A program made the translations under genes and the position numbers. A stretch of DNA of 60,016 nucleotides. Source: Croceibacterium sp. Lineage in GTDB: Bacteria > Pseudomonadota > Alphaproteobacteria > Sphingomonadales > Sphingomonadaceae. Shown piece after piece: positions 25,555 to 46,938 of this stretch; position 1 is the stretch's first letter, and every line of letters starts with the position of its first letter. A model generated the notes under the pieces. That model worked only from the letters and a program-made list of their open reading frames with translations. It searched no databases and was not told where the DNA came from. The stretch is from NCBI GenBank assembly GCA_025450635.1, contig JANWHA010000002.1, positions 1 to 60,016 of the forward strand. The letters are read 5' to 3'.

Positions 25555-26184
25555 TCAATCGCGCGCTTGCGGCGTACCGAAGGCGAAGCGGCACGATCGT
25601 TCGCCCCGCGCCATGCAGCGGCGGTGCTCGACCGCGCGGCCCGACAGCTTTTCCAATAAGGCGAGGTCGACCGCGCAGACGGCCGGATCGCCCATCGCGA
25701 GATCGTGGAAGACGCAGTTGTGCGCCTCGATCTCGTGCTCTTCGCCGGCGATGTGCGCCTCATAGCCCAGCTCGCGCATCAGCGCGGCGATGTCGGCGAC
25801 CGCGACCTCGCCCCGCGGGGCCAGTTCTCGGGCGATCTGCTGGCCGATGCGGGCGAGCGCCTCGGGCAGCGCCTGGGGTCCGAGAAAGTGCGCCAGCTCG
25901 GCGATCAGCTTGCGCGCCAGGAGCGCGTATTGACGCGGAAACAGCGCCTCGCCCGAGGCGCTGAGCTGGAAGCCCTGCGATGGCCGGCCGCGGGTCGAAA
26001 TCTGCGCGGCGCGTTCGACCAGCCCGTCGCGCTCCAGCGAATTAACATGCAGATGAGTCGCGTTGCGCGAAATGCCAAGCTGCCCGGCGAGCGCCGGGAT
26101 CGACATCGGGGCCGGCGCGTGCAGCAGCAGCGACAGGATCCGCTCGCGCGTGCCGCCGGGCAAGGTTCCAGGAGCGCTGTCCAT
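25555..26184 (-). CDS. winged-helix transcriptional regulator with SufR-like C-terminal cysteine motif
   Basis: TRERILSLLLHAPAPMSIPALAGQLGISRNATHLHVNSLERDGLVE wHTH; C-terminus NC-x12-C-x19-C-x7-C; ATG at 26184. Confidence 0.8.
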   Translation of the reverse strand: MDSAPGTLPGGTRERILSLLLHAPAPMSIPALAGQLGISRNATHLHVNSLERDGLVERAAQISTRGRPSQGFQLSASGEALFPRQYALLARKLIAELAHFLGPQALPEALARIGQQIARELAPRGEVAVADIAALMRELGYEAHIAGEEHEIEAHNCVFHDLAMGDPAVCAVDLALLEKLSGRAVEHRRCMARGERSCRFAFGTPQARD

Positions 26185-26215: not shown

Positions 26216-26251
26216 TTCAACTTTGTAATCTTCTATATTGACAAACTTGAA
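26216..26251. promoter_or_regulatory. candidate operator: imperfect inverted repeat TTCAACTTTGT-N14-ACAAACTTGAA in divergent promoter region
   Basis: 10/11 arm match between divergent regulator and membrane-protein operon; overlaps a TTGACA hexamer (26238-26243). Confidence 0.6.
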
Positions 26252-26301: not shown

Positions 26302-26655
26302 ATGTTGCAAGGAGCCGTGATAGTTTTCGCCATCGGTGCGCTGGGCGGGCTGGGGCTGGCGAGTTTCGTGCTGCGCGGGCAGTTGGCGATGTGGCCGCTG
26401 TCGATCCTCCACGCCCTGCTCGGCGCGACCGGGCTGGTGCTGACCGCGCTGGTGCTGTTCGGCGGGTCCGGGCGGGTCCCGGCTCACACCGGGTTGGCCC
26501 TGCTGCTGCTGGTGATCGCGGCGCTCGGCGGGTTCTTCCTCGCGTCCTACCACGTGCGCAAGGTGCCCGGGCCCAAGCCGGTGGTGCTGGTCCACGCGGC
26601 GGTCGCGGTGATCGGCGTGGTCCTGCTCGCGGGCGGCGCCTTCCGCCTGTTCTAG
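26302..26655 (+). CDS. small integral membrane protein, four predicted TM segments with conserved-looking histidines
   Basis: 117 aa hydrophobic; LSILHALLGATGL, RVPAHTGLALLL, ASYHVRKVPG, VLVHAAVAVIG; RBS ggaggaaaac upstream. Confidence 0.8.
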   Translation: MLQGAVIVFAIGALGGLGLASFVLRGQLAMWPLSILHALLGATGLVLTALVLFGGSGRVPAHTGLALLLLVIAALGGFFLASYHVRKVPGPKPVVLVHAAVAVIGVVLLAGGAFRLF

Positions 26656-26665
26656 ACGCTCGCTT

Positions 26666-27103
26666 GTGTTCGCCCATCCGCTTCATCCGGCCGTTGTCCA
26701 TTTCCCCTTCGGGCTGCTGCTGACATCGACGATCGTCGATCTGGGATATCTCGCCGGCCTGTGGCCGGAGACGCATTACGCCGCCTGGCTGATGGCGTCG
26801 GGCCTCGTGGCGGCCGTGGTCGCGGTCGCGGCGGGCGTGTTCGATTTTCGGCGGCTGACCGAGACGCAAGTCCCTTACGCCGTGCGCCACATGGGGACGA
26901 TGGCGGTCGCGGTCCTCGGCTACGGGGTAGCCCTTTACCTGCGGCGTGAGAGCTTGACCGCGGCCGCCGAGCCGTCGGCGGCGAGCCTTGGAATCGCCAT
27001 CGCCAGCGCGCTGGTCCTCGCGGTCGGCGGCTGGCTCGGCGGCGAGCTGGTCTATCGCTACGGCGCCGGTCGCGTCGAACCGAAGGCACCGCCGCACGGA
27101 TAA
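26666..27103 (+). CDS. DUF2231 domain membrane protein
   Basis: 145 aa; VFAHPLHPAVVHFPFGLLLTSTIVDLGYL, multi-TM; GTG start. Confidence 0.82.
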   Translation: MFAHPLHPAVVHFPFGLLLTSTIVDLGYLAGLWPETHYAAWLMASGLVAAVVAVAAGVFDFRRLTETQVPYAVRHMGTMAVAVLGYGVALYLRRESLTAAAEPSAASLGIAIASALVLAVGGWLGGELVYRYGAGRVEPKAPPHG

Positions 27104-27139
27104 GTGGAACTGGCGGCGATTGCCGGCCATTCTAGCGCC

Positions 27140-28144
27140 ATGCCCGCGCCCTTCGCATGGATTCGCGCCGAGCCGCACGGCATCCATGTCGCGCCGGCCG
27201 ACTGCTGGATCGACCCCTCGCAACCGGTCGAACGGGCGCGGGTCACCCACGGCCACGGCGATCACGCGCGGGGCGGACATGGACAGACGGTGGCCACACC
27301 CGCGACGCTGGCGATCATGGAGTTGCGCTACGCGACTCGCGACGGCGCCACGCCAGTCGAATACGGCGAGACGATCCGCCTCCCGGGAGGCGTCGAGGCG
27401 ACTTACATCCCCGCCGGCCACGTGCTCGGCTCGGCGCAGATCCTGCTCGAGCATGCCGGCGAGCGGGTGATCGTCACCGGCGACTACAAGCGCCGGGCCG
27501 ATCCGACGTGCCCGCCGTTCGAGGTCACTCCGTGCGACGTGTTCATCACCGAAGCGACTTTCGGGTTGCCGGTGTTCTGCCATCCGCCGGTCGGCCAGGA
27601 GATCGCCAAGCTGCTGAAGGCGCTGCGCGATCATGCGGATCGCTGCGTGCTCGTCGGGGCATACGCGCTCGGCAAGGCCCAGCGGTTGATCGCCGAGCTG
27701 CGCGGCGCCGGTCATCACGAACCGATCTATCTGCATGGGGCGATGGAGCGGATGTGCCGGCTGTACGAAGAGTTCGGCGTCGATCTCGGCGATTTGCGGC
27801 TCGTGTCCGACCATTCGAAGGACGATCTGCGCGGCGCCATCGTGATCTGTCCGCCCGGCGCGTTGAATGACCGCTGGAGCCGGCGCCTGCCGGATCCGAT
27901 CACCGCGATGGCCAGCGGCTGGATGCGGGTGCGCCAGCGCGCCCGCCAGCGCAACGTCGAGCTGCCGCTGGTCATTTCCGATCACGCCGATTGGGGGGAG
28001 CTGACTCGCACGATCGAGGACGTGAACCCGGCGGAGACCTGGATCACTCACGGCCGCGAGGAAGCGCTGCTGCGTTGGTGTCAGCTTCACCAGCGCCGCG
28101 CCCGCGCGCTGGCGCTCGCGGGCTATGAGGACGAGGACGATTAG
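27140..28144 (+). CDS. ligase-associated DNA exonuclease (metallo-beta-lactamase fold)
   Basis: THGHGDHARGG (HxHxDH), GHVLGSAQILLEHAGERVIVTGDYKRR; directly precedes DNA ligase; in-frame GTG at 27104 is alternative start. Confidence 0.9.
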   Translation: MPAPFAWIRAEPHGIHVAPADCWIDPSQPVERARVTHGHGDHARGGHGQTVATPATLAIMELRYATRDGATPVEYGETIRLPGGVEATYIPAGHVLGSAQILLEHAGERVIVTGDYKRRADPTCPPFEVTPCDVFITEATFGLPVFCHPPVGQEIAKLLKALRDHADRCVLVGAYALGKAQRLIAELRGAGHHEPIYLHGAMERMCRLYEEFGVDLGDLRLVSDHSKDDLRGAIVICPPGALNDRWSRRLPDPITAMASGWMRVRQRARQRNVELPLVISDHADWGELTRTIEDVNPAETWITHGREEALLRWCQLHQRRARALALAGYEDEDD

Positions 28145-29740
28145 GTGGAGGAATTCGCCGCCCTCGTTGATGCGCTGGTCTACACGCGCAGCCGCAACGA
28201 GAAACTGCGGCTGCTGGCCGATTATCTGACGCGCACCCCTGACCCGGACCGCGGGTGGGCGCTGGCGGCGCTGACCGATTGCCTGAGCTTCCCGGCGGTC
28301 AAATCGAGCACGATCCGCAATCTGATGATGGAGCGGGTCGATCCGGTGCTATGGGTGCTGAGCCGCGATTTCGTCGGCGACACGGCCGAAACCGCCAGCC
28401 TGTTGTGGCCGGACGCCAAGGGCGCGGTCGCCCCGCCGCCGAGCGTGACCGAAGCCGTCGAGGCGCTGGGCCGGATGACCCGCATGTCCGTGATGTCCGA
28501 GCTGCCCAAGCTCCTCGACCGGCTCGACGCGAATGGCCGCTACGCCCTGATCAAGCTCGCCACCGGCGGCATGCGCCTCGGCGTGTCCGCGCGGCTGGCC
28601 AAGACGGCGTTCGCGCAAGCGTTCGCTGTCGCCGTGGAGGATGTCGAGGAATACTGGCACGGCCTCCAGCCGCCGTTCGCGCCGCTGTTCGCGTGGGCCG
28701 CCGAGGGAGCGCCTCCGCCGCGCACCGAAGACTTGCCGGTGTTTCGGCCGTTCATGCTCGCGCACCCGCTCGACGATGTCACCGTCGACCTCGAAGACTA
28801 TGTCGCCGAGTGGAAATGGGACGGCATTCGGGTCCAGCTGGTCCACGCCGGCGGCGAGACCCGGCTCTATTCGCGCACCGGCGACGACGTCAGCGGCTCG
28901 TTCCCCGAAATGGCGGGGGCGCTGAGCTTCCCGGCCGTGCTTGACGGTGAGCTGCTGGTGCGCGGCTCGCATCAAGGGGGCGAAGCCGGCGGCGCAGCTA
29001 GTTTCAACGCGCTGCAGCAGCGGCTCGGGCGCAAGGCCGTCAGCGCGAAGATGCTGGCGGAGTACCCGGCGTTCGTGCGGCTTTACGACGTGCTGATCCT
29101 CGAAGGCGAGGATTTACGAGACCTGCCATGGACCGAGCGCCGGGCCCGTCTCGAAGCGCTGATGCCGCGCCTGCCGCGGGAGCGGTTCGATCTGTCGCCC
29201 GTCGTCGAGGCCGATCACTTCGAGCATCTCGCCGAAATCCGCAGCCGAACGCGCGACGAGGCGATCGAAGGGCTGATGCTCAAGCGCAAGGACAGTCCCT
29301 ATGTGGCGGGGCGCAAGACCGGGCTGTGGTACAAGTGGAAGCGCGACCCGCTGCTGGTCGATTGCGTGCTGATGTACGCCCAGCGCGGCAACGGCAAACG
29401 TTCGAGCTTCTATTCCGACTACACCTTCGGCTGCTGGGATGGCGATCCCGATGCAGGGGCCGAGCTGCTGCCGGTCGGCAAGGCCTATTTCGGCTTCACC
29501 GACGAGGAATTGAAGCAACTCGACCGCCATGTGCGCAACCACACGACCAACCGCTTCGGCCCGGTGCGCGAAACGGACCGCAGCCTGGTGTTCGAGGTGG
29601 CGTTCGATTCGGTCCACGCCAGCAAGCGCCACAAGTCAGGCCTCGCGATGCGCTTCCCGCGCATCAGCCGCATTCGCTGGGACAAACCGGCCGAGGAAGC
29701 TGATCGGATCGAGGCGTTGCGGGCGCTGGTTAAGGACTGA
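28145..29740 (+). CDS. ATP-dependent DNA ligase (bacterial LigB/LigC-like, Lhr-associated type)
   Basis: 531 aa; EWKWDGIRVQL (KxDG), EGLMLKRKDSPYVAGRKTGLWYKWKRDP; GTG start immediately after exonuclease stop. Confidence 0.93.
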   Translation: MEEFAALVDALVYTRSRNEKLRLLADYLTRTPDPDRGWALAALTDCLSFPAVKSSTIRNLMMERVDPVLWVLSRDFVGDTAETASLLWPDAKGAVAPPPSVTEAVEALGRMTRMSVMSELPKLLDRLDANGRYALIKLATGGMRLGVSARLAKTAFAQAFAVAVEDVEEYWHGLQPPFAPLFAWAAEGAPPPRTEDLPVFRPFMLAHPLDDVTVDLEDYVAEWKWDGIRVQLVHAGGETRLYSRTGDDVSGSFPEMAGALSFPAVLDGELLVRGSHQGGEAGGAASFNALQQRLGRKAVSAKMLAEYPAFVRLYDVLILEGEDLRDLPWTERRARLEALMPRLPRERFDLSPVVEADHFEHLAEIRSRTRDEAIEGLMLKRKDSPYVAGRKTGLWYKWKRDPLLVDCVLMYAQRGNGKRSSFYSDYTFGCWDGDPDAGAELLPVGKAYFGFTDEELKQLDRHVRNHTTNRFGPVRETDRSLVFEVAFDSVHASKRHKSGLAMRFPRISRIRWDKPAEEADRIEALRALVKD

Positions 29741-39510: not shown

Positions 39511-40242
39511 ATGGCAACTCTGAAATCATCCTTCGCCCCCTTGAACTGGGCCGTCTGCGCAGCCGCGATCGCCACCGCGCTGCCGGGGCTGGCACAACCG
39601 GCCGCGACCGCGCGCAGCTATCGCGTGGGAGCCTTCGACAGCGTCGCCGCGGCGGGACCGCCGCTGGTCATTGTCCACGTCGGCGGGGCGCCGGCGGTCC
39701 GAGCAGAGGGGCCGGCCGATGCGCTCGACAAGATGGAGGTCGTCGTGGAACACGGAGCGCTGCAAATTCGCCCGCGTCGCGAATTCCGCGATCACATCGA
39801 CTGGAACAGCCTGAGGCGGGCTACCTTCACGGTGACCGCGCCGCGCCTGAGCGCGGCTTCCGTCGCAGGATCGGGCGACATGCGCGTCGATCGAGTCGAG
39901 GGCGACCGGTTCGTCGCCTCGGTTGCCGGTTCGGGCGATCTCGACATCGCCACACTGCGCGTCGGGCGGGCCAACTTCAGCGTGGCCGGGTCGGGCAACC
40001 TCACCGCGCGCGGCAGCGCTGGCCGCGCCGACGTCTCCGTCGCGGGCTCGGGCAATGTGCGCACGCGCGGCGTCGCCACGCGCAGCGCCTCGATCAGCAT
40101 TGCCGGCTCGGGCGACGCCGAACTGACGGCCGAGGACACGGCCAGCGTTTCGATCATCGGCAGCGGCACCGCGGAAATTGCCGGCCGAGCGCATTGCACC
40201 GTCAGCCGCATCGGCTCCGGCCAGGCCCATTGCAACGCCTGA
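39511..40242 (+). CDS. head GIN domain-containing protein (DUF2807), secreted
   Basis: 243 aa; signal peptide; repeated VAGSGD/VAGSGN beta-helix motif. Confidence 0.85.
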   Translation: MATLKSSFAPLNWAVCAAAIATALPGLAQPAATARSYRVGAFDSVAAAGPPLVIVHVGGAPAVRAEGPADALDKMEVVVEHGALQIRPRREFRDHIDWNSLRRATFTVTAPRLSAASVAGSGDMRVDRVEGDRFVASVAGSGDLDIATLRVGRANFSVAGSGNLTARGSAGRADVSVAGSGNVRTRGVATRSASISIAGSGDAELTAEDTASVSIIGSGTAEIAGRAHCTVSRIGSGQAHCNA

Positions 40243-46332: not shown

Positions 46333-46938
46333 ATGACACGCCATTGCCTCGCTTACGTTGCCGCAGCCGCCCTGACCGCGGCCGCCGCGCCCGCCTTCGC
46401 CCAGGCCGGGCCGCCTCCGCCCGGCGCGATGCCGCCGGGTCCGCCACCCGGTTGGGTTGATCCCCAGGCGCCGCAATATCCGGGTCCGGACGGGATGCCT
46501 CGAGAGGGTTACCGCCACGGCCCGGACGGAGATGGCCCCGACCATGCCGGCGTGCCGTTTCGCCACCCGCTCCCGCCTGGAGCTTATCCGGACGGGCCGG
46601 GACGCTATCCGCCCGGTCCCATGATGCACGGGCCGATGCCCTGGGGCGGACCCGGCCCTTCCTATGGCGGCTATGGCTATGCCTATCAGTACGGCGCAGG
46701 CCCGGCGACGTGCGGCTGCGCGGCCCTGCCTCCGGTCATGTGGGTGCCGGTGCCGGTCGAAACGCGCTATCGCTATTCCGCGCCGATCCGGCACGAAAGG
46801 GAGATCGTCCAGGAACGCGTGGTCCGCGAAAGGGTGGTCGAGACCAGGACCGTTCCGGTCAGGCGCGAAGCCAAATACGTGAAATCCGCGCCGCACCCGA
46901 AGTACACCAAGGATAAGGTCGTCCGGACCACCAAGTAA
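46333..46938 (+). CDS. hypothetical secreted Pro/Gly-rich protein
   Basis: 201 aa; signal peptide, PPPPGAMPPGPPPGW low complexity, C-terminal HEREIVQERVVRERVVETRTVPVRRE. Confidence 0.72.
   Translation: MTRHCLAYVAAAALTAAAAPAFAQAGPPPPGAMPPGPPPGWVDPQAPQYPGPDGMPREGYRHGPDGDGPDHAGVPFRHPLPPGAYPDGPGRYPPGPMMHGPMPWGGPGPSYGGYGYAYQYGAGPATCGCAALPPVMWVPVPVETRYRYSAPIRHEREIVQERVVRERVVETRTVPVRREAKYVKSAPHPKYTKDKVVRTTK

Follow-up and report, generated by a model that had tools for sequence, protein, structure and literature searches.

The four tightly packed genes that we analysed in Croceibacterium sp. are a juxtaposition of two units: two small membrane proteins (TM4 and a DUF2231 protein) with a divergent SufR-like regulator, and a repair pair of exonuclease and ATP-dependent DNA ligase. 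They lie head to tail in the window (the whole stretch of 60,016 nucleotides that was analysed), and we hold with good confidence that they are regulated separately. This view comes from sequence comparison, in which the two units are conserved separately and each is preceded by its own conserved element, a putative operator for the membrane pair and a GGAAC element for the repair pair. The result removes a connection between membrane redox sensing and the repair of DNA ends that is tempting but false. The locus is of interest for two other things: TM4 and DUF2231 form a conserved pair with a one-site regulator, and the repair genes share a stress-type promoter across the family.

The packing and gene contents that were originally predicted are borne out, with all four open reading frames in place (Table 1) and their families assigned by Pfam and NCBIfam. 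The DUF2231 protein (PF09990, 78.7 bits against a gathering cut-off of 26.4), the exonuclease (TIGR04122, 437.3 bits against a curated cut-off of 325), and the ligase (TIGR04120, 785.4 bits against 400) are clear members; TM4 has no Pfam match. The gap between TM4 and DUF2231 is 10 bp, and the ligase begins directly 3' of the exonuclease stop codon. Ahead of the exonuclease, the gap had been put at either 0 or 36 bp depending on the start codon. We favour ATG 27140, and hence 36 bp, over GTG 27104 because relatives begin at this ATG, the TIGR04122 match starts at residue 7 of the ATG version, and the conserved promoter fills the space before it. The divergent cysteine-motif regulator also proved correct: its product, encoded on the minus strand opposite TM4, has four cysteines, and it likely starts at ATG 26184 and not at TTG 26220.

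Table 1. Features of the TM4-DUF2231 and exonuclease-ligase locus (window positions)
Feature	Position	Strand	Basis
SufR-like winged-helix regulator, 209 aa from ATG 26184	25555..26184	-	HTH Pfam matches, SufR_cyano 62.4 bits, cysteine positions
Proposed regulator operator, imperfect inverted repeat	26217..26247		Sole conserved gap block in four genomes
TM4, 117-aa four-helix membrane protein, no named family	26302..26655	+	Alignment, AlphaFold
DUF2231 membrane protein	26666..27103	+	PF09990, alignment, AlphaFold
Proposed EcfG-type promoter of exonuclease-ligase pair, GGAAC-N17-CATT	27106..27131	+	Upstream GGAAC conservation
Ligase-associated DNA damage response exonuclease, MBL/beta-CASP fold	27140..28144	+	TIGR04122
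Cisplatin damage response ATP-dependent DNA ligase, LigB type	28145..29740	+	TIGR04120

The original prediction had joined a redox- or Fe-S-responsive membrane module to DNA end repair. The membrane pair with its invariant histidines, the SufR-type spacing of the regulator cysteines, and a conserved operator belonging to the module all stand (see below); a function shared with repair does not, as co-occurrence fails in both directions. Among 61 relatives, 32 carry the ligase, most of these lacking TM4, which just four carry; of the 13 other genomes with TM4, 7 lack the ligase. In G209, which has both, the ligase is far from TM4 on the contig (1.63 Mb versus 0.02 Mb). Twelve genomes that lack the module keep the order ClpA-(M1 peptidase)-exonuclease-ligase, all on the same strand (one with 3.4 kb between ClpA and exonuclease, another with 1.4 kb between exonuclease and ligase), the pair is present without the module in three genomes of the same genus (G001, G002, and G004), and the ligase adjoins the exonuclease in 17 of the 18 other class members examined. 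In our sample, the full packed arrangement is restricted to two genomes of one genus, that of Croceibacterium sp. (G000) and G003, with a looser version in G399, so the co-occurrence sought in a neighbourhood survey largely failed to appear. In G000 and G003 the module is flanked by the M1 peptidase and exonuclease genes, in G399 by ClpA and M1, and in G209 it stands beside ClpA. Given these positions and the separate occurrence, it appears to be by accident of position, in the one lineage of G000 and G003, that the module adjoins repair genes; there the regulator, TM4, and DUF2231 genes would have come to lie between M1 peptidase and exonuclease.

The exonuclease has an upstream element of its own. 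GGAAC occurs within 70 nt of its start in 18 of 21 genomes (Croceibacterium sp. included), which are related and not independent of one another, compared to 2 of 42 control starts (ligase, 1/21; ClpA, 1/15; M1, 0/6) and a background of about 0.06 per 60 nt. In the upstream alignment, GGAAC usually stands 34 nt before the ATG and is followed after about 17 nt by a CATT-, CTTT-, or CGTT-like element. The GGAAC-N17-CATT of Croceibacterium sp. has the GGAAC, the 17- to 20-nt spacer, and the GTT or ATT -10 near the start codon that mark EcfG-type sequences. The EcfG motif of Sphingomonas melonis is GGAAC-N17-20-GTT, with promoters ending in ATT also listed, that of Ku among them (PMC6599016), and in Sphingopyxis ku-ligD belongs to the EcfG regulon (PMC7083833); the main texts of these two papers name neither the exonuclease nor the ligase. 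Our predicted element resembles the sphingomonad promoters in its GGAAC -35, its typical distance, and its ATT-type -10, ku-ligD is a known target, and the genome has a NepR gene; it departs from them at the -10, where CATT stands in place of the consensus CGTT and relatives vary. The element has been retained after insertion of the module, in both G000 and G003, where it fills the gap between DUF2231 and exonuclease. In 17 members of the class that belong to other families, the exonuclease has no GGAAC element at this position. We suggest that EcfG dependence of the repair pair is likely, such that the two genes would be transcribed from their own promoter as a nearly leaderless mRNA within the general stress response, and the family-wide promoter suggests a place for the pair there beside Ku-LigD. 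The single co-expressed operon of the original prediction thus largely gives way, computationally, to separate promoters with unrelated regulation, a conserved operator for one unit and the GGAAC element for the other. Other matches in the window to GGAAC-N16-18-[CG]NTT lie at 39803 and 45308 on the plus strand and at 46856, 12835, 10012, and 5107 on the minus strand.

The regulator carries cysteines at C157-x12-C170-x27-C198, with C190 in addition. Its winged helix and its C-x12-C-x27-C spacing are those of SufR and Rv1460, the Fe-S repressors of suf operons (in Rv1460 the required cysteines are C203, C216, and C244; PMC6034842). It differs from them in scoring 62.4 bits against SufR_cyano (TIGR02702), under the curated cut-off of 178.8, and in adjoining the membrane pair instead of suf genes, none of which was identified among the genes beside it. 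The regulator accompanies TM4 in four genomes (G000, G003, G209, and G399), and in all four the regulator/TM4 gap contains a single conserved block, CAACTTTGTAATC-N7-TTGACAAA, between flanks that are poorly alignable and not conserved. The motif CTTTGTAATC-N7-TTGACAAA has an exact match once per genome, in this gap, in 4/4 regulator-bearing genomes. In the window, its core CTTTGTAATCTTCTATATTGACAAA occupies 26221-26245, forms an imperfect inverted repeat (CTTTGT...ACAAA), and contains a -35-like TTGACA at 26238-26243 with no good -10 partner. We looked for a wider regulon in six genomes, that of Croceibacterium sp. being only 74% complete, and none had another site when up to two mismatches were allowed. 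From these sequence features, we infer that the SufR-like protein binds this operator and represses TM4-DUF2231 as well as its own gene; that it holds an Fe-S cluster is on balance probable, and loss of the cluster (through oxidants, NO, or a lack of iron) would free it from the DNA.

TM4 and DUF2231 are themselves a conserved pair. TM4 occurs in 4 of the 61 relatives and, across the order, in 11 of 401 genomes, with three weak or truncated matches among them. It was also found in Hephaestia, in three genomes from more distant parts of the phylum, and in three MAGs, of which two are betaproteobacterial by title (Alcaligenaceae and Pusillimonas) and the third is titled only Proteobacteria. A DUF2231 frame lies directly behind TM4 in all 16 full-length TM4 loci, which span several proteobacterial lineages. 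We note that at one locus (L015, 8441-8749) the beginning of DUF2231 is in a different frame from the remainder, by frameshift or assembly error, and that at another (L025, in G083) the TM4 frame breaks off at about 57 residues, probably in a decaying copy, for which we found no intact DUF2231. The Croceibacterium sp. genome has two more DUF2231 paralogues (G000:C100:42845-43249 and G000:C67:7854-8240), with no TM4 beside them in the stretches read. A search for plasmid carriage of TM4 gave no match. In seven loci without the SufR-like regulator, an ECF sigma gene adjoins the pair, and in three of these (L018, L023, and L086) a GTP cyclohydrolase I gene stands there as well. Redox and heme genes, namely those for ferrochelatase, a DyP peroxidase, a cytochrome c, and a cupredoxin, neighbour the pair in relatives and favour a redox role, each having been seen at one locus only. 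Our literature search on DUF2231 returned a database paper only, and the conserved partnership with TM4, together with the one-site regulator, offers a route to the function of this family.

In the TM4 alignment, H37 and H98 are invariant and H84 is near-invariant; the three histidines lie at a single face of the membrane. The AlphaFold model of TM4 (pLDDT 95) has four helices and puts H37 in helix 2 and H98 in helix 4 at equal depth, each six residues in from the same face. In the DUF2231 protein, H4, H7, H12, H75, and D25 are invariant, and the model (pLDDT 87) has H12 close to the beginning of helix 1 and H75 close to that of helix 3. By the positive-inside rule, with charges read by eye, both histidine sites would face the cytoplasm. 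The modelled geometry suggests that the histidine pairs suit a bis-histidine heme b, each protein contributing an invariant pair at the same depth on two helices of a four-helix bundle, and the two proteins would probably form a membrane redox complex. In our best reading, the first unit is a membrane redox pair, probably heme b-binding, that would be repressed by an Fe-S sensor. Taken by itself, the presence of heme is a tentative assignment with somewhat less than an even chance. Both proteins resemble b561-like four-helix b-type cytochromes in being small four-helix membrane proteins with paired histidines; TM4 is unlike them in having no Pfam b561 match (a single match was at chance level) and no significant structural match, so neither profile nor fold places it there. 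Foldseek with both models returned no significant match to a heme protein (best E for TM4, 0.4), and we discounted as evidence a match to the designed diheme bundle 4D2 (E 0.85). A PDB search gave no sequence relatives of either protein, and hhalign detected no homology between the two. Two cytochrome b561-like proteins (L162 and L163) weakly match the DUF2231 profile, at E about 1e-4 and below the cut-off, a hint of distant relation.

In its fullest form, our proposal is that TM4-DUF2231 is a previously undescribed two-subunit b-heme membrane redox complex, which answers to a SufR-like Fe-S repressor in one lineage of sphingomonads and in other proteobacteria apparently to ECF sigma factors (at some loci with GTP cyclohydrolase I); as a whole this is possible but doubtful. 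We give a comparable, minority share of belief to the pair being a membrane sensor, an anti-sigma partner, a metal transport protein, or a quinone-binding protein, with histidines that bind metal. The seven loci with an adjacent ECF sigma gene would fit this reading, and H4, H7, H12, and H75 of DUF2231 could bind a metal ion. Against it, neither small protein has a cytoplasmic domain that could bind a sigma factor, and the regulator-bearing lineage has no adjacent sigma gene.

Whatever the membrane pair does, transcription of the two units could still be connected. We found no terminator between DUF2231 and exonuclease, and a scan for sigma-70 promoters and terminators gave nothing useful inside the locus; with a gap of only 36 nt, read-through from the first unit into the repair pair is therefore possible and, to some degree, likely, which counts against fully separate regulation. 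An inserted module might in this way have added a SufR-like-controlled promoter, making the pair answer to an Fe-S sensor as well as to general stress in this genus, an arrangement that is compatible with two units. The shared strand, the same gene order in G003, and the position of module, M1, exonuclease, and ligase on one strand in G399 agree with such a capture. We nevertheless think it unlikely, since the EcfG-type element is kept in G000 and G003, the three module-free genomes of the genus manage without it, and read-through by itself need not be selected. A single operon working as one system, its membrane module sensing redox state solely in the service of DNA end repair, would explain the packing in G000 and G003, but we regard it as very improbable: module and ligase do not co-occur, the exonuclease-ligase pair has its own promoter, and the module is kept elsewhere with ECF sigma factors and GTP cyclohydrolase.

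The second of our two units has a known counterpart in a repair cluster of LigB, Lhr helicase, phosphoesterase, and MBL nuclease, described in PMC10140301, which cites Ejaz and Shuman 2018 for it. The exonuclease and ligase agree with it, as adjacent and clear members by the NCBIfam cut-offs. The difference is that in Croceibacterium sp. the Lhr-type helicase (a TIGR04121 match) is encoded elsewhere, on contig C136, whereas the window is on C2, and that the pair has its family-specific EcfG-type promoter; no shared promoter of this type was seen upstream of the helicase. Among the ligase orthologs, one (G312:C2:98007-99586) is split over two frames.
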